Of a DNA stretch of 64,000 nt, positions 951 to 35,834 are shown piece by piece. Source of the DNA: Marmoricola sp. (lineage in GTDB: Bacteria > Actinomycetota > Actinomycetes > Propionibacteriales > Nocardioidaceae); the NCBI GenBank assembly GCA_025964775.1, contig JAOPYE010000026.1, positions 62,001 to 126,000 of the forward strand, in the 5' to 3' direction. A program made the position numbers and the translations under genes. Within the stretch, counting starts at the first letter, position 1. Each line of letters opens with the position of its first letter. The notes beneath the pieces are model-generated. The model had not been told where the DNA came from, did not search any database, and saw nothing but the letters and a program-made list of their open reading frames with translations.

Positions 951-966
951 CGTAACTCGACTTATG
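951..966. promoter_or_regulatory. Motif-1 operator in divergent yrbEA / citE-like promoter
   Basis: CGTAACTCGACTTATG, a one-base variant of the consensus CATAAC-N4-(C/G)TTATG found at four other promoter gaps here. It sits between the left Mce operon and the operon containing the TetR gene at 2937, which makes that TetR a good candidate to bind it. No experimental support is visible. Confidence 0.65.
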
Positions 967-1056
967 GCAGGTGTCAAGGATCACGCCGAACCCGTACCGG
1001 CGGCTGTACGGACAGAAGGCGATCGCATATAATTGAACTTTGATTAAGGAGTCCGA

Positions 1057-1926
1057 ATGACCGCCTCCCCTGCTGCGCCGAGGAGCTGCCTGAGCGTTCC
1101 CGGGTCGTCGGCCCGGATGCTCGCGAAAGCGTCCGCCTCTGATGCCGACGAGATCGTGATCGACCTCGAGGACGCGGTCGCCACCGGCGCCAAGGACGAC
1201 GCCCGCGCCGAGGTGGTGGCCTTCCTGGCCGCCGCGAAACCAGGTCGCCGCATCGCGGTCCGCGTCAACGTGGTCGGATCGCGCTGGTGCCATCAGGACC
1301 TGATCGCCCTCGGAAGCCTTGCCCAGCCGCCCGCGTCGCTGGTGGTACCGAAGGTCGAGTCCGTCGGTGATATCGCCTTCGTCGAGCGTCTGCTCACCGG
1401 CGTGACCGGCCAGCGGCCTGGCACGGGGATCCGGCTCCAGGCGCTGATCGAGTCGGCAACGGGACTGGTCGCCGTCGACGAGATCGCCGGATCGGGAGCC
1501 AGCCTCGAGGCACTCGTCCTCGGGTACGCCGACCTGTCGGCCAGTCTCGGCCGCGCCCCGGATCTCGGGGGGTGGGAACCAGCCCGTGAGCGACTGCTCT
1601 GGGCCGCCCGCGCGCACGGGCTCCGCGCCGTTGACGGCCCGCACCTGGGCATCGCGGTGGACGAGGACTTCGAGTCCGGCGTTCGCGCTGCGACCAGCAG
1701 CGGCTTCGACGGCAAGTGGATAATCCACCCGGCTCAGATCGCTGCCGTCAACACGGCGTTCTCTCCCGACGCCACGCAGATCGCGTGGGCCGAGCAGGTA
1801 TTGGCGGCGCTCGTCGCCGCCGAGCGGGACGGTCTCGGCGCGGTCGCGCTCGACGGCGACATGCTCGACGAGGCGGTGGCCGTCCGAGCTCGCCGGGTAC
1901 TGGCCCGCAGCGGAGGCACAGGGTGA
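1057..1926 (+). CDS. HpcH/HpaI / CitE-family CoA-ester lyase
   Basis: Predicted CoA-ester aldolase or lyase of the CitE group, 289 residues, near the family's usual 270-300. AAGGAG lies five bases before the ATG. Visible motifs are SVPGSS near residue 13, the metal-site IDLEDAV at 35-41, VPKVES near 105, and ALIESATGL, where the Glu is typical of Mg-binding CitE proteins. These enzymes cleave or form malyl-, citramalyl- or similar hydroxyacyl-CoA thioesters. The next gene, a MaoC hydratase, overlaps its stop by GTGA, so hydration and retro-aldol cleavage of an unsaturated acyl-CoA is a plausible joint role. The substrate is unknown. A TATAAT-like box is at 1028-1033. Confidence 0.85.
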   Translation: MTASPAAPRSCLSVPGSSARMLAKASASDADEIVIDLEDAVATGAKDDARAEVVAFLAAAKPGRRIAVRVNVVGSRWCHQDLIALGSLAQPPASLVVPKVESVGDIAFVERLLTGVTGQRPGTGIRLQALIESATGLVAVDEIAGSGASLEALVLGYADLSASLGRAPDLGGWEPARERLLWAARAHGLRAVDGPHLGIAVDEDFESGVRAATSSGFDGKWIIHPAQIAAVNTAFSPDATQIAWAEQVLAALVAAERDGLGAVALDGDMLDEAVAVRARRVLARSGGTG

Positions 1927-2921
1927 GCGCCGCCCGCGGCCCGTACTTCGACGAATTGGACGTCGGGCGAACGTTCCGCGACGCCCCGGGGATCACGCTG
2001 ACCGAGGGGGGCGCGGCCGCTCATCAGGCGATCGTCGGGGATCGGCTGCGGCTCGCTCTGGACCACGAGCTGGCGCGCCTGGTCACCGGGCGGCCGGGCC
2101 TGGCCCATCCCGCGTACGTCTGGAACACCGCCATCGGCCAGTCGACCCTGGCGACCCATCACGTCCGCGCCAACCTCTTCTACCGCGGTCTGGCGTTCGA
2201 ACGGATGCCATACCTCGGGGACACGCTCACCACCACCACGCAGGTGGTCGGGCTCCGCGAGAACTCGCGACGCACCGGGCGCCGTGCGACCGGTCTGGTC
2301 GGGTTGCACATCGTCACTCATGACCAGCGCGGAGATCTCGTCCTCGACTTCCACCGGTGCGCGATGCTGCCGCTCAGCGACGATTCAGTGACGACCGGTC
2401 ATGCTGACGACCTCGACCTGGTCGGCGAAGCTTCCGTCGGCAGCAACTTCACCGGAAGCTGGGACCTCACGGGGTACGTGCTGCACGACCTCGTTCCGGA
2501 ACTCGCGCCGGGAGAGGTGATCGAGGTCATGGGTGGTGACGTCGTGAGCTCGGCCCCCGAACTGGCACGGCTCACCGGCAATGTGGCGCAGGTGCATCAC
2601 GACGCGCGCGCCGCTGGCGGCCGCCGTCTGGTCTACGGCGGGCACACCATCGGGATAGCGCTGGGACAGGTCAGCCGCGCACTTCCGCAACTCGTCACCG
2701 TGCTCGGCTGGGAGGGCTGCGACCATCTCGGCCCCGTCTACGAGTGGGACACCCTGCGCAGCACGATCGAGGTGGTCGATCTTCGGGCACGGGCCGCTGG
2801 GGGCGGCCTCGCCGACCTTCGCTGCCGGGTCGCCGCCGACGACCCGGACGTGACCGTCGGTTCCCGTCCTGTCCTCGACTGGCGATTCACGGCACTGGTG
2901 GCCGGCTCCGACGTCTCCTGA
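1923..2921 (+). CDS. MaoC-like hot-dog hydratase/dehydratase
   Basis: 332-residue protein starting at the GTG that overlaps the CitE-like stop (GTGA). The frame is open further upstream, but that part lies inside the lyase gene. The N-terminal half has YFDELDVGRTF, common at the start of MaoC domains, then a typical mid-region with PAYVWN and YLGDTLTTTTQVV. The length suggests a double hot-dog. Known relatives add water to enoyl- or mesaconyl-type CoA esters. Its coupling to a CitE-family lyase recalls the mesaconyl-CoA hydratase/malyl-CoA lyase pairing, but that is an analogy and not shown by sequence. The canonical (D)-x4-H hydratase dyad is not obvious to me. Confidence 0.75.
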   Translation: MSAARGPYFDELDVGRTFRDAPGITLTEGGAAAHQAIVGDRLRLALDHELARLVTGRPGLAHPAYVWNTAIGQSTLATHHVRANLFYRGLAFERMPYLGDTLTTTTQVVGLRENSRRTGRRATGLVGLHIVTHDQRGDLVLDFHRCAMLPLSDDSVTTGHADDLDLVGEASVGSNFTGSWDLTGYVLHDLVPELAPGEVIEVMGGDVVSSAPELARLTGNVAQVHHDARAAGGRRLVYGGHTIGIALGQVSRALPQLVTVLGWEGCDHLGPVYEWDTLRSTIEVVDLRARAAGGGLADLRCRVAADDPDVTVGSRPVLDWRFTALVAGSDVS

Positions 2922-2936
2922 CCCTAGGATAGAAAA

Positions 2937-3581
2937 ATGGCACGCAAAGCAGCAGCCCCCGACGGACGCGGCAAGACCGCGGACGGCGCCGGCGAGTCCA
3001 AGTCCGCCCGCACTCGGACCCGGATCCTCGACTCAGCGGCCCACGTCCTGAGCATCAAGGGCTATGCCGGGATGCGGCTCTCGGACGTGGCGGACCATGC
3101 AGAACTCCAGGCGCCGGCGATCTACTACTACTTCCCCTCCCGCGAGGACCTGATCGAAGAGGTCATGTGGGCGGGCATCGCCGACATGCGCGACCACCTC
3201 GTCGAGGTGCTCGGAGCGGCGTCGTCGGAGGCAACCCCGATGGACAAGATCATGCTCGGCGTCGAGGCCCACCTCCGCCACGAGCTCGACATCTCCGACT
3301 ACACCACTGCGTCGATCCGCAACGCCGGGCAGCTGCCGGAGAAGATCCGCAAGCGCCAGGTCGCGGAAGAGGCCAGGTACGGCGAGCTCTGGCGCAAGCT
3401 CTTCAAGGAGGCATCTGCGGCGGGCGAGATCCGTGACGACCTGGATCTCTACATCGCCCAGATGCTCGTCTTCGGCGCGTTGAACTGGACTGCCGAGTGG
3501 TGGAACCCCAGGAGGGGCTCGCTGGGGACGGTCGTGGCCATGGCGCAGAGCTTCGTGCGCGAGGGGCTGTCTCCCTCCTGA
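2937..3581 (+). CDS. TetR-family regulator, KstR2-like (first paralogue)
   Basis: 214-residue TetR repressor. A charged N-terminal tail is followed by the DNA-binding helices (about 22-70), including TRTRILDSAAHVLSIKGYAG and the recognition-helix end APAIYYYFPSRE. The C-terminal domain carries FGALNWTAEWWNP, a signature I associate with KstR2-type regulators that bind acyl-CoA ligands. It is the last gene of the plus-strand lyase/hydratase operon. Its closest relative in the window is the TetR at 25440, which shares APAIYYxF and LNWxAEW. It probably represses its own operon and, by inference, the other promoters with motif 1. Which ligand it senses is unknown. Confidence 0.88.
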   Translation: MARKAAAPDGRGKTADGAGESKSARTRTRILDSAAHVLSIKGYAGMRLSDVADHAELQAPAIYYYFPSREDLIEEVMWAGIADMRDHLVEVLGAASSEATPMDKIMLGVEAHLRHELDISDYTTASIRNAGQLPEKIRKRQVAEEARYGELWRKLFKEASAAGEIRDDLDLYIAQMLVFGALNWTAEWWNPRRGSLGTVVAMAQSFVREGLSPS

Positions 3582-3584
3582 GTC

Positions 3585-4838
3585 TCAGGCAGGGGCCCCC
3601 GCAAGCTTGGCTGCGTGCAGGTCCGCGCGCCGGACGGCATGCTCGAGCGCCTCATCCCAGGTCACGCCCCTGGCGATCATCACGCGGTACTTCATGATCT
3701 CGCTCTGCCCGTTCACGGTCAGGGCGCCGATCAGCCGGTCCCCTTCCCGGTAGAGAGCAACCCAGCGGCCCGTCGCCTCGGATTCCGGATCACCCTCGAC
3801 GAGGCGGACCTCGTCGGCCTCGGGTGCGCCCACGAACTGGATCCGGACGTCGTACCAGTCCGACCAGAAGTACGGAACCGTGCCGTAGGACTTGGCGTTC
3901 CCCGGGTCCAAGGCATTGCGCGCTGCCGCGGCTCCCTGCTCCGCGGCGGCGGTCCAGTTCTCCATCCGCTGCCGGCGACCGAGAGCCGGGTTGAACCAGT
4001 TCGCGACATCTCCGGCCGCGTAGACGCCGGGTACGCCGGTGAAGAGGTGCTCGTCGCAGACGATTCCGTTGTCGATCACCAGGCCTGAGCCGGCGAGCCA
4101 GCCGACGTTGGGCGTGACCCCGATCCCGACGATCACCAGGTCCGCGGGGAGCACGGTGCCATCGTCGAGGACGACGCGCTCGACCGCCGTCGTTCCTTCG
4201 ATCGCAGCGACGCCGTTGCCGCACAACAGGGTCGTCCCGTTGCGCGCGTGCAGCGAAGCGATCGCGTGCCCCATCTCTGACCCGGTAGCGCGGACCAGCG
4301 GCGTGGCGAGAGCCTCGACGATCGTGACGTCGACGCCCCACTTCTTCGCCGACGAGGCGACCTCCGAGCCGATGAAACCGGCTCCGATGACGACGGTGCG
4401 GGCACCGGCATCCAGTGCGGCACGCACCGCGACCGAGTCGTCGAGGCTGCGCACCACGTGCACGCCGGCCAGAGTCTCCGATCCGGGGATGCCACGCGCA
4501 TCGGCGCCGGTCGCGATCACCAGGGCGTCGTAGCTGATGGCGCGATCCCCGACGTGGACAACCCGTGCGAGCGGGTCCAGACCCGTCGCCGGCGCTCCGA
4601 GGACGAGCTCGACCCCGAGCTCGTCGGTGAGGTGGCTGTGCTCACGGAAGAACGGCCGCTGGGGCTCGCTGCCGTCGTCGGTCACAGCCAGGAACTCCTT
4701 CGACAGCGGAGGCCGATCGTACGGCAGGTGCTCCTCAGCGCCGATCAGGGTGATCGGGCCGTCATGACCGGCCTTGCGCGCCGCCTCAACGGCGCGCAGG
4801 CCAGCGAGCGAGGCACCGACGACAACCAAGTGAGTCAT
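3585..4838 (-). CDS. FAD/NAD(P)H-dependent ferredoxin reductase
   Basis: 417-residue pyridine-nucleotide reductase of the putidaredoxin/rubredoxin reductase type. VVVGASLAG (residues 5-13) is the FAD-binding fold, DRPPLSK near 41 is typical of these reductases, IATGAD near 108 is conserved, and VVIGAGFIGSEV (149-160) is the NAD(P)H fold. YAAGDVA near 265 closes the FAD site. It should pass electrons from NAD(P)H to the ferredoxin encoded five bases upstream. The ATG at 4838 is chosen because the longer frame would run into that ferredoxin gene. It ends three bases from the convergent TetR gene, with no room for a terminator. Confidence 0.93.
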   Translation of the reverse strand: MTHLVVVGASLAGLRAVEAARKAGHDGPITLIGAEEHLPYDRPPLSKEFLAVTDDGSEPQRPFFREHSHLTDELGVELVLGAPATGLDPLARVVHVGDRAISYDALVIATGADARGIPGSETLAGVHVVRSLDDSVAVRAALDAGARTVVIGAGFIGSEVASSAKKWGVDVTIVEALATPLVRATGSEMGHAIASLHARNGTTLLCGNGVAAIEGTTAVERVVLDDGTVLPADLVIVGIGVTPNVGWLAGSGLVIDNGIVCDEHLFTGVPGVYAAGDVANWFNPALGRRQRMENWTAAAEQGAAAARNALDPGNAKSYGTVPYFWSDWYDVRIQFVGAPEADEVRLVEGDPESEATGRWVALYREGDRLIGALTVNGQSEIMKYRVMIARGVTWDEALEHAVRRADLHAAKLAGAPA

Positions 4839-4843
4839 GGGCG

Positions 4844-5035
4844 TCAGACCTGGATGCGCAGGGCCTCGGTCGGGCACCCGGCAACGGCTTCCTCGATGGA
4901 CTGGAGCTCATCGTCCGTGATGTCGTCCTTGAGGAGCACCAGGTCACCGTCGTCATTGACCTCGAAGAAATCGGGAGCCAACGACTCGCAGATGCCGAGC
5001 CCCGTGCACTTGCTGAAATCGACCAGGACCTTCAT
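4844..5035 (-). CDS. [3Fe-4S] ferredoxin
   Basis: 63-residue ferredoxin of the type that serves actinobacterial cytochromes P450. Cluster ligands are C10, C16 and C54 (followed by Pro). The second position of the usual CxxCxxC is Gly13, which points to a [3Fe-4S] rather than a [4Fe-4S] cluster. The MKVLVDF start at 5035 has AGAGGTGG upstream; an earlier in-frame start lacks this. Its reductase follows directly. A motif-1 operator lies 35 bases upstream, and the same motif precedes the P450 operon at 35693-31474, so that P450 is the likely partner. It could also feed the Rieske oxygenase, although those normally use [2Fe-2S] proteins. Confidence 0.93.
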   Translation of the reverse strand: MKVLVDFSKCTGLGICESLAPDFFEVNDDGDLVLLKDDITDDELQSIEEAVAGCPTEALRIQV

Positions 5036-5069
5036 GACGACCACCTCTCTCATCCGCGATTCGGATGAA

Positions 5070-5085
5070 CATAACTCTACTTATG
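5070..5085. promoter_or_regulatory. Motif-1 operator upstream of ferredoxin/reductase operon
   Basis: CATAACTCTACTTATG inside the longer inverted repeat AACATAA...TTATGTT (5068-5087), 35 bases before the ferredoxin start. It is one of the best copies of motif 1. Confidence 0.72.
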
Positions 5086-5119
5086 TTCCGGTCCGAGTCA
5101 ATCCCTACGGAGCGACTTT

Positions 5120-6412: not shown

Positions 6413-6434
6413 GTCAGTCCGATCTGTAGTGAGG

Positions 6435-7598: not shown

Positions 7599-7600
7599 GG

Positions 7601-8821: not shown

Positions 8822-8827
8822 GTGCTT

Positions 8828-8842
8828 ATTCTATATTAAAAA
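8828..8842. promoter_or_regulatory. Weak motif-2-like site and A+T-rich promoter
   Basis: ATTCTATATTAAAAA matches 8 of the 12 defined positions of AATCTA-N3-TAGATT. It lies in the 30-base gap before the SnoaL/crotonase gene. The left half is good and the right half poor. The gap is strikingly A+T rich and is probably this operon's promoter, although readthrough from the upstream operon is possible. Confidence 0.35.
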
Positions 8843-8851
8843 ATAAAGCCG

Positions 8852-12578: not shown

Positions 12579-12601
12579 GATTCCTCCTGAGTTGATGGTC
12601 T

Positions 12602-13864
12602 TCAGCTCGCCAGTGTCTGCTCGGCAGCGCGTGCCAGCTCTTCACGGACGGCGGGGTCCGCGATCGCCAGCATCCGCTCGATCCGCTTGTCGAGCGCCAA
12701 TCCGCGCAGGTCTGCGACTCCGTGCTCGGTGACCACGACGATCTCCTCCGAGCGCGGCGTCGACACCGGGCCGGAGAGCTTTGCCACCACCCGGGAGGCG
12801 CCCTTGGAGGTCGACGGCAGCGCGACGATCGGAATGCCACCGCGGGACCGTGCTGCACCACGGAGGAAGTCGACGGCACCACCGATGGCGCCGACATATC
12901 GACCTGCAGCTACTTCCGCATTCACCTGGCCGGTCAGATCGACCTCGAGCGCTGCGTTGATGGCGACCAGCTGGTGTGACTGGGCAAGCACCTCCGGGTC
13001 GTGCGTGTACGTCGTACCGCGAAGCTCGAGTCGAGAGTTGCGATGCGCGAACCGGAACAGTGAGTCGGTGCCTCCGAGCAGCCCGCCGATCGCGACCCGG
13101 CGGTCCAGGGTCTTCCTCTCGCCGGTGGCCACGCCGGACTCGATGAGGCGCAGGGCGGCGTCGTTGATGATGCCCGAGTGGATTCCCAGGTCCCGGTGCT
13201 GCCCGAGCTGGTCGAGTACTGCCTCCGGGAGCGCCCCGATGCCGAACTGCAGGGTGGCGCCGTCCTGGACCAGGCCGGCCACCCGGCGCGCTACTGCGGC
13301 GGTCTGGTCGCTGACCAGCGGGGTCGGCATCGTCTCCGGCGCCCGAGAGGTGTGGATCATCGCGTCGCAGTGATGTGCCATCAGCGTGCGGGCGCCGTAG
13401 GTGAAGGGCACCTGGTCGTTGATCTCGGCGATCACGGTCCGGGCGGTGCCGATGGCCACGGAGAAGTAGTCGTCACCGAGACCCAGGCTGTGCCGTCCGC
13501 TCTCGTCGGGCCGCGAGACCTGGACGAACACGACGTCCGCCCGCAGGGAACCGGTGGTCAGCATGGCCGGAAGCTCGGAGTAGTGCGCCGGCACGATCTG
13601 CAGTCGGCCGGCGTCGTGGAGTGCGGCGTTCGAGCCTGCGCCGCAGTAGGAGAGCACCTCCAGTGACGGAGCAGTCGCCACTGATGCAGCAGTGACCGCC
13701 GAGTTGGCAGGGATCCCGACGAAACACCGCACCGTGCCGATTCGTTCAGCCTGGGCAACGAGCTGCTCTGTCAGCGTGCGGGGCTCGCTGCAGGCCTGGC
13801 CCCAGACGACCAGGTCGCCCGGTCTGACGTACCGCGTCAGGTCGATGGGAGCGTCAGGAGTCAT
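12602..13864 (-). CDS. Acetyl-CoA hydrolase/CoA-transferase family protein
   Basis: 420-residue class I-like CoA transferase of the acetyl-CoA hydrolase/4-hydroxybutyrate CoA-transferase family. NAALEVDLTGQVNAE near residue 310 contains the Glu expected to form the covalent glutamyl-CoA intermediate, and GGAVDFLRGA and TEHGVADLRG follow as in the family. It could move CoA between acetyl-CoA or succinyl-CoA and a pathway acid, or hydrolyse a CoA ester. The start at 13864 is used because the frame upstream overlaps the small gene at 13854-14090, whose last codons overlap this start. It lies in the Rieske oxygenase operon. Confidence 0.92.
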   Translation of the reverse strand: MTPDAPIDLTRYVRPGDLVVWGQACSEPRTLTEQLVAQAERIGTVRCFVGIPANSAVTAASVATAPSLEVLSYCGAGSNAALHDAGRLQIVPAHYSELPAMLTTGSLRADVVFVQVSRPDESGRHSLGLGDDYFSVAIGTARTVIAEINDQVPFTYGARTLMAHHCDAMIHTSRAPETMPTPLVSDQTAAVARRVAGLVQDGATLQFGIGALPEAVLDQLGQHRDLGIHSGIINDAALRLIESGVATGERKTLDRRVAIGGLLGGTDSLFRFAHRNSRLELRGTTYTHDPEVLAQSHQLVAINAALEVDLTGQVNAEVAAGRYVGAIGGAVDFLRGAARSRGGIPIVALPSTSKGASRVVAKLSGPVSTPRSEEIVVVTEHGVADLRGLALDKRIERMLAIADPAVREELARAAEQTLAS

Positions 13865-14090
13865 GACGCCAGCGGTCAGCGGACGGGTCCAGCAGCTGGT
13901 CGAGCCGTTCGTCGACGAGGTGCACGAGCGCCTCCAGCTGGAGAGGGTCGAGGAACCGGGCCTCGCCGGTGCGCAGGTCCTCGACCCGGAGTCGGGCGGA
14001 GTTTCCGTCGCCGTCGATCCGCACCGAGACCGAGGCGAACTCGTTCTCGACCAGACCGACAGGACGGTCATTCGCCCCTGGCAACGTCAT
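13854..14090 (-). CDS. Small protein of unknown function in oxygenase operon
   Basis: 78 residues, with no recognised domain. The ATG overlaps the Rieske beta-subunit stop by ATGA and its end overlaps the CoA-transferase start, the same coupling used throughout this operon. That coupling is the main reason to accept it as a gene. The sequence has a beta-rich start (ASVSVRIDGD, ARLRVEDLRTGEARFL) and an acidic helix (LDPLQLEALVHLVDERLDQL). It could be a small accessory subunit or stabiliser of the oxygenase; nothing in the sequence proves this. Confidence 0.7.
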   Translation of the reverse strand: MTLPGANDRPVGLVENEFASVSVRIDGDGNSARLRVEDLRTGEARFLDPLQLEALVHLVDERLDQLLDPSADRWRHDS

Positions 14091-17519: not shown

Positions 17520-17530
17520 CCAGCCTCCTT

Positions 17531-17545: not shown

Positions 17546-17601
17546 AAGACCCTACCTCACTGTCCGCAACCCGACAGTCGAGCCCTTTCTAATTTCACCT
17601 C

Positions 17602-17628
17602 AATTATTGACGCCCGTAAATTATTGAC
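17602..17628. repeat. Tandem AATTATTGAC direct repeat before kinase/TetR operon
   Basis: AATTATTGAC occurs at 17602-17611 and again at 17619-17628, 17 bases apart, ending 13 bases before the kinase ATG. An inverted repeat ACTGTC-N8-GACAGT lies at 17559-17578. Spacing near one and a half helical turns and the location suggest a regulator site or promoter element, possibly for the EthR-like TetR of the same operon. Confidence 0.5.
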
Positions 17629-17641
17629 CTACGGTCGCCTC

Positions 17642-18802
17642 ATGTTGCGAACCATCGAAGCCACCAAGGACCTCCTGCTCGGCCTCGCCCCCTGGGTGCC
17701 GGGCCACGGCCGCTATGGCCTGGACTCCCTGACGACCGACGAGCTCGAGCGCGCCGTCAGGGGACCGGTGACCGGAGCGCGACTGCACGGCCACCGCGTC
17801 GAGATCGACTCGGTGGGCACGACCGACCGCGCGCGGCTGCACCTGGACTGGAACGACATCGGGCGCAGCGCGGGACTGCCGCCGACCGCGTTCGCCAAGG
17901 GCACGTCGTCGGGGCTGGCGCCGCGCGGGATCGTGTCCGGCTTCGGCTGCCACACCTACGAGACGCGGTTCTTCCAGCAGATCCAGCCGGCGGTGGAGGA
18001 CCTGACTATCAAGCCGTACCTGAGCAGGTCCGGCATCGGCGGCCGCTACGTCGCTGCGTTCGAGGACATCGCACTGCGAGGCACGGACGGGCAGAACGTC
18101 ACCTTCTACAACGCCGACGACGAGTGCCCGCTCTCGCACGCAGAGGCGATGATGGACCTGCTCGCCAAGCTCCACGGACGGTTCTGGAAGTCGCCGCGGT
18201 TCAGCGCGGACCTGGCCTGGCTCGAGACCTACTCGAGGAGACCCGGCTACCCGTTCATGGCCCAGGCCTTCAAGCTGTCGGAGCGGAAGTTCATGGCCCA
18301 GGACCGCGAAGTCCCCGACGCCGTACGTCGCTTGACGAAGGCCTACGTGAAGAACCAGCCCGCGCTGGTGAAGGTCTGGGAGGCGATGCCGCAGACGCTC
18401 TGCCACGGCGACGATCACCTCGGCAACACGTTCGCGAACCCGGACGGCACCGCCGGCATCTACGACTGGCAGGTCTTCCACAAGCAGAACGGCCTCAGGG
18501 ACGTCGCCTACTTCCTGATGCACTCGGTGCCGACCGAGCTGCGCCGCACCCACGAGAAGGCGCTGCTGGAGCGCTACCTGCACGGGCTTGCGGAGCACGG
18601 CGCCGGAGCCGAGGCACTGACGCTCGCGGAGGCGTACGACACGTACCGGCTGCTGACCATCGACGGCTGGATCATCATCGTGTTCACCCTGGCCGCCGGC
18701 GGCATGCAGCCGGACGACCGGATGGAGGTCACCGCGGTCCGGGCGATCAATACGCTCGTGGATCTGGAAGTCGAACAGGCGATCTCCGCGGCGTTGCGGT
18801 AG
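17642..18802 (+). CDS. APH/CHK-like phosphotransferase of unknown substrate
   Basis: 386-residue protein kinase-fold phosphotransferase. The catalytic loop is CHGDDHLGNTF (H255, D257, N262), and IYDWQ (D275) is the metal-binding motif. It belongs to the aminoglycoside phosphotransferase/choline-kinase-like superfamily seen often in lipid and steroid catabolic regions of actinobacteria, where the substrate is usually unknown. The ATG at 17642 is preferred over a TTG six codons earlier. An EthR-like TetR follows nine bases after the stop, so the two likely form an operon. Antibiotic resistance is not implied by the sequence. Confidence 0.85.
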   Translation: MLRTIEATKDLLLGLAPWVPGHGRYGLDSLTTDELERAVRGPVTGARLHGHRVEIDSVGTTDRARLHLDWNDIGRSAGLPPTAFAKGTSSGLAPRGIVSGFGCHTYETRFFQQIQPAVEDLTIKPYLSRSGIGGRYVAAFEDIALRGTDGQNVTFYNADDECPLSHAEAMMDLLAKLHGRFWKSPRFSADLAWLETYSRRPGYPFMAQAFKLSERKFMAQDREVPDAVRRLTKAYVKNQPALVKVWEAMPQTLCHGDDHLGNTFANPDGTAGIYDWQVFHKQNGLRDVAYFLMHSVPTELRRTHEKALLERYLHGLAEHGAGAEALTLAEAYDTYRLLTIDGWIIIVFTLAAGGMQPDDRMEVTAVRAINTLVDLEVEQAISAALR

Positions 18803-18811
18803 GAAGTTCCC

Positions 18812-19402
18812 GTGGTGACCAAGGGCGACCGCCGCCGGCAACGGATCCTGGACGCCGTTGCCGAACTGCTGGTGACCGAGACCTTCGAGGAGATCTCGAT
18901 CGCCGAGATCACCCGGCGCGCTGACGTGACCCGCCCCGGCTTCTACTTCTACTTCCCGACCAAGGGCGCGGCCGTCGCGTCGCTGATGGAGGGTCTCGTG
19001 GCCGAGTTCATGCAGGCTGCCGCAGTCTGGTACGAACACCGCGAACCCGACCAGGAGACCGGCCTGCGTGTCGGGATGGACGCGACGATTACGCTGTGGC
19101 GCAAGCACGCCGTGGTGATGCACGGGATGGTGCAGGCGGCTGCGGTCGACGCCGAGGCCGACCGGATCTGGCAGCAGTGGGTAGCCGCGTTCACCGCTCG
19201 TGCCGTCCCGACCCTGACCGCCGACCTCACCCGCCGGCCCACCAACGGATCGCAGGCCGTCGACCTGGCCACGTTCCTGGTCGATGCCACCTTCGCCGCG
19301 ATGCAACGCGACGTCCGAGCGCTGGTCGAGACCGGATCCGGAACGCCGGGACTGCTGGACTCGATCGTGCACGTCTGGTCGCGGACGCTGTACTCGGGCT
19401 GA
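18812..19402 (+). CDS. TetR-family regulator, EthR-like
   Basis: 196-residue TetR protein. The DNA-binding domain is in residues 5-55 with RRQRILDAVAELL and the recognition end RPGFYFYFPTKGAAV. The C-terminal region (AVWYEHREPD, HAVVMHGMVQAA) resembles EthR-type ligand domains. The GTG at 18812 has AGGAAG five bases upstream. It is cotranscribed with the kinase gene and its stop is two bases from the convergent ligase stop. Likely target: its own promoter, with direct repeats at 17602-17628; possibly also the minus-strand ligase/Rieske operon across the gap. Confidence 0.9.
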   Translation: MVTKGDRRRQRILDAVAELLVTETFEEISIAEITRRADVTRPGFYFYFPTKGAAVASLMEGLVAEFMQAAAVWYEHREPDQETGLRVGMDATITLWRKHAVVMHGMVQAAAVDAEADRIWQQWVAAFTARAVPTLTADLTRRPTNGSQAVDLATFLVDATFAAMQRDVRALVETGSGTPGLLDSIVHVWSRTLYSG

Positions 19403-19403
19403 G

Positions 19404-22584: not shown

Positions 22585-22585
22585 C

Positions 22586-24545: not shown

Positions 24546-24585
24546 TGTTCGATCTCCGCTTCACGGGGTAAGGTTTCTTGAATCG

Positions 24586-24600
24586 AATCTAAATTAGACT
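24586..24600. promoter_or_regulatory. Motif-2 operator in divergent MaoC / SDR-TetR promoter
   Basis: AATCTAAATTAGACT matches 11 of 12 positions of AATCTA-N3-TAGATT. It lies 40 bases before the minus MaoC start and 45 before the plus SDR start. The plus operon encodes the TetR most likely to bind here. Confidence 0.68.
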
Positions 24601-24645
24601 AACTCTGCAGTCAATCCGCACAGCGTCGACCCGGAGGTGCACACG

Positions 24646-26063: not shown

Positions 26064-26082
26064 CAACCTCTCTCACTGTTTC

Positions 26083-26099
26083 AAATCTATGTTAGATTT
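26083..26099. promoter_or_regulatory. Perfect motif-2 palindrome upstream of thiolase/dehydrogenase operon
   Basis: AAATCTA-TGT-TAGATTT has perfect seven-base arms around a three-base centre. It lies 44 bases before the thiolase start, 20 bases after the TetR stop. It is the best copy of motif 2. Confidence 0.75.
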
Positions 26100-26142
26100 T
26101 AGGTAACACGTTTGAGAGAAGCGTCTCCAGAGAGGAACCACC

Positions 26143-27294: not shown

Positions 27295-27295
27295 G

Positions 27296-29311: not shown

Positions 29312-29339
29312 TCCACTCTCCTTCGATTGGTCCGCTCAT

Positions 29340-29355
29340 TCTAACGCATGTTAAA
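29340..29355. promoter_or_regulatory. Weak motif-1-like palindrome between SDR and hydrolase genes
   Basis: TCTAACGCATGTTAAA keeps the core TAAC-N4-GTTA as a palindrome but lacks the outer CA/TG of motif 1. It is centred in the 53-base divergent gap and ends nine bases before the GTG of the hydrolase. The surrounding A+T-rich bases probably hold both promoters. Confidence 0.4.
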
Positions 29356-29364
29356 TTCTTTGTC

Positions 29365-30333
29365 GTGACCACTACATCGCATTCAACCGCCGTCGTCGAG
29401 CAGGTCAACGACACCGTGCACCGGATCGAGCTCCCGCTCCCCTTCGACGACCTGCACATCGTCAACGCCTACGCGATCCTCGGGGACACGGGTGCGACCC
29501 TGGTCGACCCCGGCTGGTCCAGCCCCGAGAGTGAGCAGACCCTGCTGCGAGCGCTGGACTCGCTCGGCGTCGGCCGCGGCGACGTACGCCGGACGCTCGT
29601 GACGCACGCCCACCCGGATCACTTCACCCTGGCGGTGGCCTGGCAGCGCGACCACGGCATCCCGATCCACCTGGGCGCTCATGAGGCTCCGAGCGTGCTC
29701 GCCTTCGACCCGAGGTGCACCCGGTTCCCCCGGCAGGCGGAGCTCCTGGAACGCGCGGGCGCACCTGCGCTCGCCGCTGTCATCCGGGAGCTCCCGCTGG
29801 AGGACTACGAGGCAGCGATGGCCTTCGCCGCCCCCCACGTGTGGCTCGCCGACCGGGAGGCGATCGACTGCGACGGCGAGATCCTGGTCGCCGTTGCCAC
29901 CCCCGGACACACTCGCGGACACGTGGTCTTCCACCAGAACTCGACCGGGGCGTTCTTCACCGGCGACCACGTGCTCCCCCGGATCACACCGTCGATCGGT
30001 CTCGAGCTGGTGCCGGAGGAGCTGCCCCTCGGCCACTACCTCGGCTCGCTGGAACTCCTGCTGACCATGGACGACGGACCGATGCTCTCCGCGCACGGCC
30101 CGGTCACTTCGAGCGTCCACGATCGGGTGCGCGAGCTGCTGGCCCACCACCAGGACCGATTCGCCACGATCACCGAGCTCCGGGCATCGGGCCTGACGAC
30201 GGCGTACGAGATCGCCCGGGCGATGACCTGGACCCGTCACGAGCGCGCCCTGGCCGACCTGAACCACGTCCACCAGATGACTGCTGTGGTCGAGGTTCTC
30301 GCGCACCTCGACTTCCTCGACTCAGGCCAGTAG
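29365..30333 (+). CDS. Metallo-beta-lactamase-fold hydrolase
   Basis: 322-residue MBL-fold protein. The first metal motif HAHPDH is at 81-86, the next His is in TPGHTRGH near 190, the bridging Asp in FTGDHVLP near 210, and SAHGP near 255 gives the last His. The extra C-terminal helical part (ELRASGLTTAYEIARAM) resembles LACTB2/glyoxalase-like members. Likely it hydrolyses a thioester or an ester. Start: the GTG at 29365 is the first plausible codon and has no Shine-Dalgarno, so translation may be leaderless. Its end overlaps the convergent SCP2 gene by 12 bases. Confidence 0.9.
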   Translation: MTTTSHSTAVVEQVNDTVHRIELPLPFDDLHIVNAYAILGDTGATLVDPGWSSPESEQTLLRALDSLGVGRGDVRRTLVTHAHPDHFTLAVAWQRDHGIPIHLGAHEAPSVLAFDPRCTRFPRQAELLERAGAPALAAVIRELPLEDYEAAMAFAAPHVWLADREAIDCDGEILVAVATPGHTRGHVVFHQNSTGAFFTGDHVLPRITPSIGLELVPEELPLGHYLGSLELLLTMDDGPMLSAHGPVTSSVHDRVRELLAHHQDRFATITELRASGLTTAYEIARAMTWTRHERALADLNHVHQMTAVVEVLAHLDFLDSGQ

Positions 30334-30723
30334 GTCGACCCGGCCGGCGGCCGTCAGCCGGTCGACGTACGCCGGGAACAGCTTCTTGCCCAGGGGCGCA
30401 AGCTTGAGCAGGCTGGCAATGTTGCCGTCGACCTTGATCTTGCCGCGCGCCATCGCCAGTGGCAGGTTCACCTTGCCCTGCCAGTACGCACTGCCCAGAT
30501 CGCTGGTCATCGACATCACGGCGGTCGGCTCGGGCTGACCGGAGCCGTCACCCACGGTGGCACTGATGGTGTCCACGACGAGGACCGCCTCGGGGTCGGT
30601 GAACTTGAAGCCGAGCACGATCCCGGTCGACTTGAGCTTGGGGCCGATCTCCGGGTCGTCGAAGGCGACCGAGAAGACACTGCCGATGTAGTGACGGACT
30701 TCGTCCGCGTCCTTGAAAGCCAC
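30322..30723 (-). CDS. SCP2-type sterol-carrier domain protein
   Basis: 133-residue single-domain SCP2-like protein with VLVVDTISATVGDG and WQGKVNLPLAMARGKIKVDG, the usual lipid-tunnel strands and closing helices. Members bind sterols, fatty acids or acyl-CoAs in the cytoplasm. It ends in GRVDLLA, as does the SCP2 protein at 57982, so the two are probably related. A strong motif-1 site lies 70 bases upstream, tying it to the P450 and WS/DGAT promoters. The 3' end overlaps the convergent hydrolase gene. Confidence 0.88.
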   Translation of the reverse strand: MAFKDADEVRHYIGSVFSVAFDDPEIGPKLKSTGIVLGFKFTDPEAVLVVDTISATVGDGSGQPEPTAVMSMTSDLGSAYWQGKVNLPLAMARGKIKVDGNIASLLKLAPLGKKLFPAYVDRLTAAGRVDLLA

Positions 30724-30792
30724 GACGGTCTCCCTGTGGTGAGGTGGAACAGGCCTGACGGGTTACCGGCATTGCGCCGTAACAGGAATTAT

Positions 30793-30808
30793 CATAACTT
30801 GACTTATG
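30793..30808. promoter_or_regulatory. Motif-1 operator in divergent SCP2 / TetR promoter
   Basis: CATAACTTGACTTATG, a near-perfect palindrome between the minus SCP2 gene (70 bases) and the plus TetR gene (72 bases). Because a TetR is divergent here, that TetR is a second candidate binder of motif 1. Confidence 0.72.
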
Positions 30809-30879
30809 GGAGACTGTCGAGGGTCGGATCAGATCGATCTGCCTCTAGACTTCCCGTCGACAGCCCGAGGAGCCTGCCC

Positions 30880-31449
30880 GTGAGCAACGACGATCTGAAG
30901 GAACGGTTCTTCGACGCTGCCCAGGAGATCCTCGCCACCGAGGGCTACGGCGGACTCAAGCTGGCTGCGGTGTGCAAGCGGCTCAAGGTCACGACCGGCG
31001 CGTTCTACCACGCGTTCGAGAACTGGACCCAGTTCACCAGCGAGTTCCTGCACAACTGGCGACGCGAGCGTACGACCCTGATCGCCGAACTCTCCCGCTC
31101 TGCCGGCGACCCGGTAGGCCAGCTCGAGGCGTTGCTTGCCGGAACCCTTGATCTGCGACACGGCAGCGAGGCCGCGATCCGGGTCTGGGCCGCCGTGGAT
31201 CCGGCTGTCGCCGAGGTCCAGAAAGTGGTCGACAACGAGCGGTACGAGATCGTCCTCGAGGCGATGAACAAGCTCGTCGGCACGAAGGACGGACCACGCT
31301 GGGCGAACTGGGGCCTCAACGTCCTGGTCGGCTACGAGATGTCGACCAACGGCCAGGACTCGACCGAGCTGGAGTGGGAGCTACGGACCGTCCTTGAAGC
31401 TGCCGTGGCCCGCCGTGAAGCCCGTAGGACCTCGCGGCGTACGGCCTGA
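30880..31449 (+). CDS. TetR-family regulator
   Basis: 189-residue TetR protein. The HTH part (about 5-50) has RFFDAAQEILATEGYGGLKL and the recognition end TTGAFYHAFENW. The C-terminal domain is not of the KstR2 type (no LNWxAEW). The GTG at 30880 has GAGGAG seven bases upstream; a longer open frame to 30691 is rejected because it would cross the operator and promoter. It may repress SCP2 and itself through 30793-30808. Its stop is 24 bases from the convergent aldehyde dehydrogenase; two copies of GATCAGAACA lie in that gap. Confidence 0.88.
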   Translation: MSNDDLKERFFDAAQEILATEGYGGLKLAAVCKRLKVTTGAFYHAFENWTQFTSEFLHNWRRERTTLIAELSRSAGDPVGQLEALLAGTLDLRHGSEAAIRVWAAVDPAVAEVQKVVDNERYEIVLEAMNKLVGTKDGPRWANWGLNVLVGYEMSTNGQDSTELEWELRTVLEAAVARREARRTSRRTA

Positions 31450-31473
31450 GCCGGATCAGAACACAGAGTCAGA

Positions 31474-32868
31474 TCAGAACATCCTGCGGAGCAGCTTCTG
31501 GGTCCTCTCCGAGTACGGCGGGTACACCATCCGCAGGTCAGGTTTGAACGACTTGACCGCCACCGACTTGCGGTGGCTGAACGCGTAGAAGCCCCACTCG
31601 CCGTGGTACGAGCCCATGCCGCTCGCTCCGACGCCACCGAACGGCAGGCTCGGCAGCAGGTAGTGGATCGCGCAGTGGTTGATGACCGCTCCTCCCGCGG
31701 GGATCTGCTCCACGATCCGATCGGCGACCCGGCGGTTGCCGCTGAAGACGTAGAGCCCGAGCGGCTTCGGCCGGCTGTTGACGAGGCGGATCGCCTCGTC
31801 GAGGTCGGTGTAGGTGATGACGGGAAGGATCGGCCCGAAGATCTCCTCAGTCATCGACGGCTCGTCGAGATCGGGGTCGACCAGGATCGTCGGTGTGATG
31901 GACCGCGCTGCCGCGTCGATCTCGCCACCGACCACCGATCCGTTGGTCGCCGCGAGGTAGCCGCACAGCCGGTCGAACTGTCGCTCATTGACGATCGGCC
32001 TGCCGGCGGGCTCGCCGGCGGACATCTCCGTCAGGCTGCTGCGGATCTTGGCGACCAGCTCGTCCTTCACCGACTCGTGGACGATCAGGTAGTCGGGTGC
32101 GATACAGGTCTGGCCGGAGTTGAGCAGCTTGACCCAGGCGATGCGTCGCGCGGTCACGTCAAGGTCGGCGTCCGGCGTGACGAAGACGGGGCTCTTGCCG
32201 CCGAGCTCGAGGATGACCGGGGTCAAGGTGTTCGCGGCTCCGGCCATGATCTTGCGGCCGATCTCAGTCCCGCCGGTGAAGAACGCCAGGTCGAAGCCTT
32301 GAGCCAGCAGCTCCTGGGTGACCACGCCGTCGCCCTCGACCACGGCGACCGCATCGTTGTCGAGGTACGCCGGCAGCAGCTCGGCCATCAGCGCGGACGT
32401 CTTCGGCGCGACTTCGGACGGCTTGAGCACCGCGCAGTTGCCGGCGGCCAACGCCGCGACCAGCGGCCCGAGCGAGAGGTTGACCGGGTAGTTCCACGGG
32501 CCGATGACCAGCACCACCCCGAGCGGTTCGTACTGGATCCGGGCCGTGCCAGGCATCTGCACGAGCGGCACCTTGCGGCGCTGCGGCTTCATCCACGACT
32601 TCAGGTGCTTCAGCGCGTACTCGACGTCGCCCGTGGGCGGAGCCACGTCACCGAACCAGGCGTCGAAGTCGTTGCGCCCGAGGTCGGCCTTGACCGCCTC
32701 GACGATCTCGCGTTCACGCTCGACCAGCAGTCGCTTGAGCGCTTCGAGCTGACCGATCCTCCACGAGGCATCCCGCGTCACTCCGGTGGCGAAGTAGTTC
32801 CGCAGGCGGGTGAGGGTGGCCGCGGCCTCTGACGGCTCGGTCGAGGTCGGGGTGAGCTGGGCGGTCAT
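31474..32868 (-). CDS. Aldehyde dehydrogenase (class 3 / coniferyl-aldehyde-like)
   Basis: 464-residue NAD(P)-dependent aldehyde dehydrogenase without the extra N-terminal length of class 1/2. GPWNYPVNL near 123-131, Glu221 in ELGGK and nucleophile Cys255 in GQTCIAPDY are intact, and the tail ends SSYHGEWGFYAFSHRKSV-like as in class 3. It is last in the ligase/P450/ALDH operon, 13 bases after the P450 gene. A role oxidising the aldehyde formed after P450 terminal hydroxylation to an acid, which the ligase then activates, fits the order. Confidence 0.94.
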   Translation of the reverse strand: MTAQLTPTSTEPSEAAATLTRLRNYFATGVTRDASWRIGQLEALKRLLVEREREIVEAVKADLGRNDFDAWFGDVAPPTGDVEYALKHLKSWMKPQRRKVPLVQMPGTARIQYEPLGVVLVIGPWNYPVNLSLGPLVAALAAGNCAVLKPSEVAPKTSALMAELLPAYLDNDAVAVVEGDGVVTQELLAQGFDLAFFTGGTEIGRKIMAGAANTLTPVILELGGKSPVFVTPDADLDVTARRIAWVKLLNSGQTCIAPDYLIVHESVKDELVAKIRSSLTEMSAGEPAGRPIVNERQFDRLCGYLAATNGSVVGGEIDAAARSITPTILVDPDLDEPSMTEEIFGPILPVITYTDLDEAIRLVNSRPKPLGLYVFSGNRRVADRIVEQIPAGGAVINHCAIHYLLPSLPFGGVGASGMGSYHGEWGFYAFSHRKSVAVKSFKPDLRMVYPPYSERTQKLLRRMF

Positions 32869-32881
32869 CAGGGCTCCTGGG

Positions 32882-34141
32882 TCAGTCGATCGTGTACGGC
32901 ATGGACTTCACGGCGCGGACGAAGTTGCCGGTGAGGTACTCCGGCTCGCCGAGACGCAGGGTGGGCACCCGGTGCAACAGCTGGTCGAAGATCTCCCGCA
33001 GCTGCATCTTCGCAACGAAGTTGCCCATGCAGAAGTGCGGACCTCCACCGCCGAAGCCGACATGCGGGTTCGGGCTGCGCAGGACGTCGAACACCTCGGC
33101 GTCCTCGAAGACCGACTCGTCCCGGTTGCCCGACGAGTAGACCATCGCGACCCACTCCCCCGCCTTGATATGCTGGCCTCCGAGCACAGTGTCCTGCGTT
33201 GCCGTACGACGGAACGTCATCACCGGGGACACCCATCGAACGAACTCCTCGATCGCGCCTCCGATCCGTCCCTCGAAGTCGTCGAGCAGCAAGGCCTTCT
33301 GCTCCGGGAACTGCTGGAGCGCACGCATCGCCAGGCTGATCGAATTCCGGGTGGTGTCGTTCCCGGCGACCGAGAGCAGCACGAAGAAGGACGCGATCTC
33401 GTCATCCGTGAGCTTGACGCCATCGACCTCGGCCTGGACCAGGTTGGTCATCAGATCGGCCTGGGGGTCGTTGCGGCGCTGCTCGGCAAACTCGAACCCG
33501 AGCTCGAGCAATCCGACCAGCGACTCGTTGAGCACCTCGCCAGGCTCGCGGCCAGCGGCGACGTCCTCGTCGGCCCAACTGACCATGCCGTCGGCGTGGT
33601 GCGCCGCCGCCTCGCGCTTCTCCTGGTCGTCGAGGCCCATCATCTCGTAGATGGTCCACATCGGAAGCTTCTTCGAGACGTCCGCGACGAAGTCACCCGA
33701 GCCCTTGGCGATGATCTCGTCGACGATCGTGACGGCCTGCTGCTTGATCTGGTCGTTGATCTTCGTCACCTGGCGCGGGGTGAAGGCCGAGCTGACCAGC
33801 TTGCGCAGCACCTGGTGACGCGGCGCATCCATCCCGAGGAACGACCCGGCTGCTTCGTTGACGTCGGGTGGGACCTCCTCGAACTGGAAGCCCTCGCCCG
33901 AGCAGAAGATGTCCGCGTTCTTGCTGACCTGAGTGATCAGCTCGTGGGTGGTGACCACCCAGACACCCTCGTTCTCCGGAGGGATCAGCGCGCCCTCCAG
34001 CGGCGGGTGCCAGCTGATCGGCCGCTCGCGACGCAGGACCTTGAACGTCTCCTCGCGCTCCTCGGCCGTCTGCGCCCAGAACGACACCGGCGAGACACTC
34101 AGCTCGTCGTACGTGCGGGCATCGCCCATGGTGCTGGTCAT
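32882..34141 (-). CDS. Cytochrome P450, CYP125/CYP124/CYP142-like
   Basis: 419-residue soluble P450. The I-helix motif is AGNDTTRNS near 265, the K-helix ExxR is EFVR near 308, and the heme loop GFGGGGPHFCMGNFVA has the thiolate Cys371. AGNDTTRN and the GGGGPHFC loop are like the actinobacterial CYP124/125/142 group, which hydroxylate methyl-branched or steroid side-chain termini; substrate is inferred only. GGAG lies six bases before the ATG. It sits between an acyl-CoA ligase and an aldehyde dehydrogenase. The [3Fe-4S] ferredoxin and reductase at 5035-3585 share its motif-1 control and are likely redox partners. Confidence 0.94.
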   Translation of the reverse strand: MTSTMGDARTYDELSVSPVSFWAQTAEEREETFKVLRRERPISWHPPLEGALIPPENEGVWVVTTHELITQVSKNADIFCSGEGFQFEEVPPDVNEAAGSFLGMDAPRHQVLRKLVSSAFTPRQVTKINDQIKQQAVTIVDEIIAKGSGDFVADVSKKLPMWTIYEMMGLDDQEKREAAAHHADGMVSWADEDVAAGREPGEVLNESLVGLLELGFEFAEQRRNDPQADLMTNLVQAEVDGVKLTDDEIASFFVLLSVAGNDTTRNSISLAMRALQQFPEQKALLLDDFEGRIGGAIEEFVRWVSPVMTFRRTATQDTVLGGQHIKAGEWVAMVYSSGNRDESVFEDAEVFDVLRSPNPHVGFGGGGPHFCMGNFVAKMQLREIFDQLLHRVPTLRLGEPEYLTGNFVRAVKSMPYTID

Positions 34142-34142
34142 G

Positions 34143-35693
34143 TCAGGCTCCGATCTTCGACGCGACGGGCGCGTACCTCTTCTTGAGCTCGCCCTTGACG
34201 AGCTTGCCGGTGGGCGTGCGAGGAAGCGACTCGGCGAAGTCGACCGTCCGCGGCGCCTTGTAGTGGGCCAGACGTTCGCGCACGTAGGAGATCAGCTCGG
34301 TGGCGAGTTCGTCGCTCGCCGTGAAGCCTTCCTTGAGCTGGACGACCGCCTTGACCTGCTCGCCGAACTCCGCGTCCGGGATGCCGATCACGCCGACGTC
34401 GAAGATGGCCGGGTGCAGGGTGAGGACGTTCTCGATCTCCTGGGGGTAGATGTTCACCCCGCCGGAGATGATCATGAAGGCTTTCCGGTCCGTGAGGTAC
34501 AGGTATCCGTCCTCGTCGACGTAGCCCAGGTCTCCGACTGCGGTCCAGGTCGGGTGCGACGGGTGCTGCGCAGCCGCGGTCTTCTCCGGGTCCTTGTGGT
34601 ACTCGAACGGCACCGTCTCGCGCTCGAAGTAGACCGCCCCGACCTCGCCGGCCGGCAGCTCGACGCCCTCGTCGTCGCAGACATGAACCGGGCCGAGAAC
34701 GCTCCTGCCGACCGAGCCGGGCCGGGCGAGCCACTCGGGTGAGGAGATCAGGGCCATCCCGTTGCCCTCGGTCGACGCGTAGTACTCCAGCAGGATCGGG
34801 CCCCACCAGTCGATCATCGCCTGCTTGACCTCGGGCGGACACGGCGCGGCCGCGTGCACCGCGAGTCGCAACGAGGAGGTGTCGGCAACGTCACGGACGT
34901 CGGCGGGAAGCTGAAGCATGCGGACGAACATCGTCGGCACCATCTGCAGCACGGTGACGCCGTGCTCGGCGATCGCGTCCAGTGCCGCCTCGGCGCTGAA
35001 CTTCTCCATCATCACGACCGTGCCGCCGTGGGCGTGCACGATGCCGCACCAGCGCAGAGGAGCCGCGTGGTAGATCGGCGCCGGGGACAGGTAGACGTCG
35101 TCCGGGTTGAGACCGAAGGCGACTCCGGCGAGCCCGGTCAGCGGGTCGCCCGGCTCGTTCACCTGGATCGGCAGCAGCGGCGGCTTCACGCCCTTCGGCC
35201 GACCGGTCGTGCCGCTGGAGTAGAGCATGTCGCTGCCGCGGGGCATGTCCGCGAGCGGCTCTCCCGCGCCGGCGAGCAGTTCCTCGTACGACCCGTGGCC
35301 GGTGATCTCGCCGCCGAACGCGAACCGGTGGGTGATCTGCGGGGTGTCCCCGGAGATCGCCTCGGCCAGGGGGCGTACACCCGCCGAGGCGATCACGATC
35401 CGGGCGTCGCAGTCGTTGACGATGTACGCGGCCTCGTCGGGAGCCAGGTTGTGGTTGATCGCCGTCACGTACAGACCGGAGCGCAGGGCCGCCCAGTAGA
35501 CCTCAAGGGCCTCGGCTGCGTTGTCGGACAGCATCGCGAAGACGTCCCCCTTGCGGAGCCCGAGATCGTGCAGGGCTCGGGCGAGCCTGGCCGACCTGTC
35601 CTCGAGTTGGCCGTACGTCAGGACACGACCCGATCCGGCCATGATCAGGGCCGGCTTCTCCGGGTTGGTGGCCGCGTGCGTACCTGGAAACAT
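34143..35693 (-). CDS. Acyl-CoA ligase (FadD-like)
   Basis: 516-residue ANL ligase, first gene of the ligase/P450/ALDH operon. Motifs: LYSSGTTGRPKGV near 165, EYYASTEGNG near 300, VGDLGYVDEDGYLYLTDR near 395 and TPTGKLVKGELKKRY at the C-terminus. The YASTEG form is typical of the mycobacterial FadD17/FadD19-like group used for steroid or long-chain acids. The ATG at 35693 has GGAG seven bases upstream; the longer frame to 35738 would overlap the motif-1 operator. It should activate the acid produced by P450 plus aldehyde dehydrogenase. Confidence 0.94.
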   Translation of the reverse strand: MFPGTHAATNPEKPALIMAGSGRVLTYGQLEDRSARLARALHDLGLRKGDVFAMLSDNAAEALEVYWAALRSGLYVTAINHNLAPDEAAYIVNDCDARIVIASAGVRPLAEAISGDTPQITHRFAFGGEITGHGSYEELLAGAGEPLADMPRGSDMLYSSGTTGRPKGVKPPLLPIQVNEPGDPLTGLAGVAFGLNPDDVYLSPAPIYHAAPLRWCGIVHAHGGTVVMMEKFSAEAALDAIAEHGVTVLQMVPTMFVRMLQLPADVRDVADTSSLRLAVHAAAPCPPEVKQAMIDWWGPILLEYYASTEGNGMALISSPEWLARPGSVGRSVLGPVHVCDDEGVELPAGEVGAVYFERETVPFEYHKDPEKTAAAQHPSHPTWTAVGDLGYVDEDGYLYLTDRKAFMIISGGVNIYPQEIENVLTLHPAIFDVGVIGIPDAEFGEQVKAVVQLKEGFTASDELATELISYVRERLAHYKAPRTVDFAESLPRTPTGKLVKGELKKRYAPVASKIGA

Positions 35694-35735
35694 CCTCGAA
35701 CTCCGTCTGTCGTGAGCACCGTCGATCGACGCTAA

Positions 35736-35751
35736 CATAACAACACTTATG
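35736..35751. promoter_or_regulatory. Motif-1 operator upstream of ligase/P450/ALDH operon
   Basis: CATAACAACACTTATG, 43 bases before the ligase start. It is the first of two motif-1 copies in the 141-base divergent gap between this operon and the WS/DGAT operon. Confidence 0.7.
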
Positions 35752-35810
35752 TCGGAAGAGGTTGCTTAACAGAGAATCGAAAATCTCTCCTCGTACCCTT
35801 GTCGACACCC

Positions 35811-35826
35811 CATAACTTGAGTTATG
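35811..35826. promoter_or_regulatory. Motif-1 operator upstream of WS/DGAT gene
   Basis: CATAACTTGAGTTATG, the most symmetric copy of motif 1 (seven-base arms around TG). It ends only eight bases before the ATG of the acyltransferase gene, so a bound repressor would cover the transcription start or the leader. It lies 60 bases from the copy at 35736. Confidence 0.75.
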
Positions 35827-35834
35827 TTCAGGTC

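Follow-up and report, generated by a model that had tools for sequence, protein, structure and literature searches.

Gene content of the locus

The window, i.e. the whole stretch of 64,000 nucleotides of Marmoricola sp. that was analysed, contains the first gene of an mce importer operon, the genes of a ferredoxin, a ferredoxin reductase, an SCP2-like lipid carrier, an acyl-CoA ligase, a cytochrome P450, an aldehyde dehydrogenase and a wax ester synthase/diacylglycerol acyltransferase (WS/DGAT) as well as at least six TetR genes between positions 2937 and 42696 (Table 1). The mce operon runs leftwards out of the window and all four proteins tested there were Mce proteins (L001). The start codon of its first gene, the YrbE/MlaE permease, is probably located at or below position 884. 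The best PDB match of the P450 was CYP268A2 with 458 bits over residues 1-417, followed by CYP125 and CYP124. The palindrome at 35736 shares bases with the first ATG at which fadD4 could start (35738); a further ATG at 35693 is the likelier start.

Table 1. Coordinates of the putative operators and of the genes at the locus.
Feature	Position	Strand	Remarks
Putative operator 1	951..966	-	CGTAACTCGACTTATG; yrbE/mce promoter; -35 TTGACA 977-972, -10 TACGTT 954-949, minus strand; counterparts at yrbE relatives in L023, L032, L176
Putative operator 2	5070..5085	-	CATAACTCTACTTATG; ferredoxin-ferredoxin reductase promoter; counterparts at ferredoxin relatives in L023, L032, L175
Putative operator 3	30793..30808	.	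CATAACTTGACTTATG; between SCP2 (-) and tetR (+); SCP2 side: -35 TCGACA 30820-30815, -10 TATGAT 30796-30791
Putative operator 4	35736..35751	-	CATAACAACACTTATG; fadD4-P450-ALDH promoter; no good -35 found; counterparts at fadD4 relatives in L147, L148
Putative operator 5	35811..35826	+	CATAACTTGAGTTATG; WS/DGAT promoter; -35 TTGTCG 35799-35804, -10 TATGTT 35823-35828, ATG 35835
YrbE/MlaE permease	117..977	-	MlaE 4.2e-58; first gene of mce importer operon
Ferredoxin reductase (FdR)	3585..4877	-	Pyr_redox_2 1.7e-61, Reductase_C 1.1e-16
Ferredoxin (Fd)	4844..5053	-	ORF; identity from sequence and place beside FdR; likely redox partner of the P450
SCP2-like lipid carrier	30322..30723	-	SCP2 3.1e-6, above cut-off
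TetR-family repressor (P0002)	30880..31449	+	TetR_N; AlphaFold fold matches; motif association
Aldehyde dehydrogenase (ALDH)	31474..32868	-	Aldedh 7.6e-91
Cytochrome P450	32882..34141	-	nearest solved relative CYP268A2 (6bld), 2.1e-136
FadD4-like acyl-CoA ligase	34143..35738	-	NF009929 1e-232, FadD4 model 2.6e-180, both below NCBI cut-offs
WS/DGAT	35835..37196	+	TIGR02946 3.4e-125, above cut-off

Further genes are present in the window. At 1057-2921 and 12602-14071, a CitE/HpcH lyase, a MaoC protein with weak likeness to itaconyl-CoA hydratase and an acetyl-CoA hydrolase/transferase are encoded, which possibly constitute a branch for branched dicarboxylates. An ecdysteroid-kinase-like/APH gene is located beside an EthR_C TetR gene at 17624-19402, and relatives of both adjoin in genome G006.

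Five palindromes in the promoter gaps

On rescanning the window, the pattern CATAA[C/G]TNNA[C/G]TTATG was found in five copies, two of them with one mismatch, at all five coordinates of the original prediction. Between fadD4-P450-ALDH and WS/DGAT, the sites at 35736 and 35811 follow each other at a distance of 75 bp. The looser pattern proposed initially, CATAAC-N4-(C/G)TTATG, gave ten strand-matches with up to two mismatches, corresponding to five places. In 100 shuffles of the window, the same pattern was matched 0.58 times on average and three times at most, so that the five palindromes are indeed beyond chance. The four central bases had been regarded as free, but the first is T in four of the five sites and the last is A in all of them. 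A scoring matrix was built from 14 sites, namely the five of the window and nine of relatives. The window sites reached scores of 24.7-29.9; the runner-up within the window was position 30778 with 9.6. The suggested weaker copy at 29340-29355 was rejected as a sixth site with a score of -4.2.

The draft genome of the organism itself (3,925,024 bases) was scanned with CATAASTNNASTTATG. Eight places were found with up to two mismatches, five of them in the cluster, while the reversed control gave one place. Exactly the five cluster sites had 0-1 mismatch and each of the other three had two. The even spread over the genome that had been named as evidence against a regulon was thus not seen in the pattern scan. 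A global regulon was rejected as well, with three two-mismatch places away from the cluster. Among these, the place in L172 lies within a long coding frame and the one in L171 in or near a gap. The latter (CTTAAGTTTCGTTATG, 3024-3039) lies close to where a penicillin-binding-protein-like gene and a WhiB-like frame, both recognised by eye, begin. With the looser pattern, 27 forward and 29 reverse matches were obtained at up to two mismatches, compared to 15 forward and 13 reverse matches of its control. Its exact matches were confined to the cluster and its one-mismatch places elsewhere were C34:220024, C52:34668 and C52:60933.

The view was borne out that a single motif in promoter gaps defines a local regulon, which links genes for lipid transport and P450 chemistry with SCP2 and the wax ester synthase. 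For the site at 951, which had been placed before yrbE and citE-like genes, the yrbE/mce promoter was retained, but not citE, because the -35 and -10 elements point to yrbE. Moreover, the site stays with yrbE in G006, L032 and G102, where citE is found elsewhere, and citE was rejected as its target.

Assignment of a probable TetR regulator

The protein encoded at 30880-31449 contains an N-terminal TetR helix-turn-helix (PF00440, E 4.1e-7, 30.1 bits with a cut-off of 24). Its AlphaFold model (pLDDT 94, nine helices, built from 18 sequences) predicts an all-helical fold with a larger C-terminal domain as the TetR family requires. The model had many TetR matches in the PDB with TM-scores up to 0.76, none with more than 23% identity among the matches listed. 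Sequence searches yielded weak matches, mostly to the helix-turn-helix, the best with 8.9e-5. This gene starts 72 bp past the end of the palindrome.

The original prediction had named two TetRs, at 2937 and 30880, as candidates for a gel shift. Their distribution was compared with that of the site in 149 genomes of the family, with TetR relatives called at E<=1e-20. The exact site was present in five genomes, the 30880-type TetR in 11 and the 2937-type TetR in 12. All five exact-site genomes were among the 11 with the 30880-type TetR (hypergeometric 8e-7) and three of them among the 12 with the 2937-type TetR (hypergeometric 0.004); kinship is ignored in both probabilities, which overstate the case because relatives are not independent. 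In G103 and G129, which lack a 2937-type TetR at this threshold, the site is flanked by SCP2 and the 30880-type gene.

Relatives of the genes were then compared across loci for sites with a matrix score >=18 within -400 to +60 of the start. The TetRs at 30880, 2937, 25365, 40213 and 18812 were included and the one at 42052-42696 was left out. A site was found upstream of 13 of the 41 relatives of the 30880 TetR, but of none of the 116 relatives of the 2937 TetR. The other TetRs gave 0/28 (25365), 0/79 (40213) and 0/4 (18812). On the side of the targets, SCP2 (10/13), yrbE (7/16) and fadD4 (4/14) were preceded by a site most often, followed by Fd (3/39), FdR (3/26) and citE (1/13). No upstream site was detected for P450 (0/25), ALDH (0/28) and AmOx (0/18), three genes that are internal to operons in the window.

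The cut-off of 18 was chosen after the scores of the 30880-type relatives had been seen, and four of the 13 sites (L100, L103, L106 and L112) score 18.2-18.6. At a score >=23, the 30880 type retains 9/41 and the 2937 type 0/116. In 100 symmetric shuffles of the matrix, the mean for the 30880 type was 0.10 and one shuffle reached 9/41. Four of the 13, the window, L003, L004 and L011, had contributed to the matrix; the other nine (L048, L090, L093, L100, L103, L106, L112, L161 and L162) had not. The remaining 28 of the 41 relatives have no upstream site at a score >=18, among them a close relative with about 50% identity (L120 in G136) and 14 of the 17 relatives in group g31.

Two observations were made on variant sites. 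In L100, L103 and L106, the two-mismatch site CTAAAGTCRACTTATG lies upstream of the TetR, and its last ATG seems to be the start codon of the TetR. In L148 (12712-13828, G102), two divergent 30880-type TetR genes adjoin with the variant palindrome AGTAAGGTAACTTACG between them.

It is quite improbable that the palindrome is bound by the TetR at 2937 or by another TetR of the cluster. The gene at 2937 is close to the site at 951 and 1.5-2.1 kb away from the one at 5070, and its type occurs in three of the five motif genomes of the family. However, two motif genomes lack it at E<=1e-20, the exact site is missing from nine of the 12 family genomes that possess it, and the TetRs at 2937, 25365 and 40213 were rejected as binders on the upstream counts given above. 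Of the two TetRs named in the original prediction, the one at 30880 fits the distribution of the sites and the one at 2937 does not.

Occurrence in other genomes

In 394 genomes of the class, the exact site was found in 13, the 30880-type TetR in 29 and both in six (probability 0.0001). In G415, one of these six, TetR and site are far apart. Seven of the 13 exact-site genomes contain no 30880-type TetR at E<=1e-20, and in three of the seven the exact site lies beside a dnaB-like gene that was recognised by eye. These three belong to another family (f18) and contain exact CATAAGTCGACTTATG in L166, L167 and L168 (position 1501); in L166 a short ORF covers the site. The sites beside dnaB-like genes are a different element or setting with the same sequence. 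In G269, and by eye similarly in G354, the exact site lies between a 30880-type TetR gene and an MPAB/Lcp oxygenase gene. Near 1501 in L161 and L162, the exact palindrome separates the TetR gene from a divergent MPAB/Lcp-oxygenase-type gene (tested in L162), and the 12.6 and 20 kb of sequence inspected there contain no P450 cluster.

Furthermore, 16 named genomes were scanned completely with up to one mismatch, eight with and eight without the site in 20 kb around the 2937-type gene. Sites were found in 11, and all 11 carry a 30880-type TetR at E<=1.9e-33. In the first group, six of the eight genomes have the site immediately upstream of the 30880-type TetR gene (36-223 bp); G509 and G513 have no site there. 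In the second group, the genomes with a site were Mycobacterium triplex, Nocardioides immobilis and Nocardia neocaledoniensis, which have the three best 30880-type scores, and in the latter two it directly precedes the 30880-type gene. The other five genomes of this group had no site in the whole-genome scan at up to one mismatch.

The targets recur in relatives, too. In G006, sites occur at yrbE, Fd, SCP2/tetR and fadD4 as well as upstream of a group of genes that includes WS/DGAT. G102 has sites at yrbE, Fd and SCP2 and two at fadD4. Smaller clusters are present in G103, G129 and G080, where a single site precedes SCP2, P450 and ALDH. The same site is also followed by Fd and FdR in G103 and G080, while the contig of G129 ends there.

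Overlap with the core promoter

For the analysis of promoter elements, 25 sites were oriented towards their presumed target, with the sites in SCP2/tetR gaps oriented to SCP2. Sites assigned to tetR or citE, the later-fetched L174-L176 and several weaker sites (for instance L024, L028, L030, L041 and L067) are not part of this set. TATGNT is present at +12, the position of the -10 box, in 20 of the 25 sites. The final T of the -10 box (+17) lies beyond the palindrome and was found in 23/25 sites on the side of the gene versus 10/25 on the opposite side (Fisher 2e-4). A TTGACA-like hexamer with at least four matching bases occurs at -11/-12 in 12 sites; at other offsets, the mean for the same 25 sites was 1.88 with a maximum of 5, and the other strand gave two. 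In the window, yrbE, SCP2 and WS/DGAT have a -35 element at this shared offset, but Fd and fadD4 do not. The best-scoring sigma-70 pair lies off the shared position at some sites, including the fadD4 site of the window. The palindrome is fused to the core promoter via a TATGNT-like -10 box. Given the fact that the ATG of WS/DGAT (35835) begins seven bases past the last base of the -10 box, its mRNA is probably leaderless.

This overlap could suggest that the palindrome is a promoter feature alone, i.e. a -10 box in a symmetric A+T-rich patch without a dedicated regulator. Such an explanation is very unlikely, since the left half, CATAAG, is no promoter element and is nevertheless conserved in 24-25 of the 25 sites at each of its first five bases, although it has to be considered that the sites were collected by both halves. 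In addition, the site tracks one TetR lineage, the 30880 type.

Comparison with known regulators

The targets of KstR and KstR2, the repressors of sterol catabolism in actinobacteria, include genes for an mce importer, a P450, an SCP2-like protein and an acyl-CoA ligase. KstR2 binds to the operator CAAG-N2-CTTG and KstR to AAC-N2-GTT. The system described here resembles them in its TetR-family protein, its palindromic putative operator and the types of its targets, but it differs in the operator sequence, AAG-N4-CTT, and the 30880 protein had 12-20% identity to KstR and KstR2 chains in the fold search. That the sites are KstR or KstR2 operators and form a branch of the sterol regulon is extremely unlikely: the gene content (mce, P450, SCP2, FadD) would fit and the best KstR-like gene lies on a different contig (C40; 269.6 bits at a cut-off of 280), but the window contains no KstR box and a single KstR2-like site with one mismatch, which is at chance level, and the half-site spacing is two bases off. 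On these tests, membership in either regulon was rejected, as there was no consensus box at the target promoters and the 30880 protein had no KstR match in NCBIfam at E<=0.001.

As a putative local TetR repressor of nearby catabolic genes, the 30880 protein is comparable to BkaR, the mycobacterial repressor of a branched-chain keto-acid operon, which is described as such in PMC3920632. It differs from BkaR (6yj2) with 16% identity in the fold match and in the genes concerned. For Nocardioides simplex, a member of the same family, the TetR-type regulator SRTF1 and the predicted catabolic motifs Acin1-3 and Sitdec1 are described in PMC7807495. Six exact operator strings had no match in the literature searched, with the motif tables of PMC4482099 and PMC7807495 lying beyond the main text. 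TTATG and ATAAG are absent from the main text of the mycobacterial TetR survey PMC4482099, whose 11 motifs may be contained in logos or supplements. Among the matches listed for CATAAGT together with TetR, one concerns a TetR, EnvR of Salmonella. The literature searched yielded no paper that describes how CYP268 is regulated.

Proposed mechanism and substrate

Taken together, the palindrome is very probably the operator of the TetR encoded at 30880-31449, which would repress five lipid-gene promoters until it is released by an inducer. The computed support comprises the sites, their overlap with promoter elements, the association with the 30880 TetR and the conservation at orthologous promoters. 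For the 30880 switch, binding, repression, inducer and substrate are predicted as follows. A repressor dimer on the 16-bp site would mask the spacer together with the first bases of the -10 box (TTATGNT), and therefore RNA polymerase would be blocked, which is the simplest mechanism of repression. The promoters of the mce/yrbE importer, Fd-FdR, SCP2, fadD4-P450-ALDH and WS/DGAT would be repressed in this way, and the 30880 tetR gene would also repress itself across the gap that it has in common with SCP2. The repressor would be released by an inducer, for which the lipid substrate or its CoA ester is the probable candidate. The lipid would then be taken up, omega-hydroxylated by the CYP268-like P450 and its redox partners, oxidised to the acid, activated with CoA and stored, all these steps being switched on together.

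Membership in a P450 family requires over 40% identity to a named member, and CYP268A2 is known to bind pseudoionone. The regulated P450 is related to the CYP268A2/CYP124A1/CYP125 group by sequence and is nearest to CYP268A2 among the solved structures. CYP124A1 omega-hydroxylates methyl-branched lipids according to PMC6469627. The regulated genes probably allow a methyl-branched or isoprenoid lipid to be taken up and terminally oxidised on induction; this putative substrate is read from the P450 family.

In terms of gene regulation, this would be an ordinary, local TetR switch of a familiar type. Operator, repressor and target list are a possible part for a lipid biosensor. More tentatively, the sites may belong to a new regulon governed by a TetR lineage with members in Nocardioidaceae, Nocardia, Gordonia and Antrihabitans. 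This lineage would respond to an acyclic isoprenoid or methyl-branched lipid and, via an operator joined to the -10 box, turn on the Mce importer, CYP268-type omega-oxidation and wax ester storage. If this is true, a dedicated Mce importer is under the same lipid-sensing switch, which would therefore hint at what an orphan Mce transporter carries. The common switch would tie the Mce importer to P450 oxidation and lipid storage and thereby make its cargo testable.
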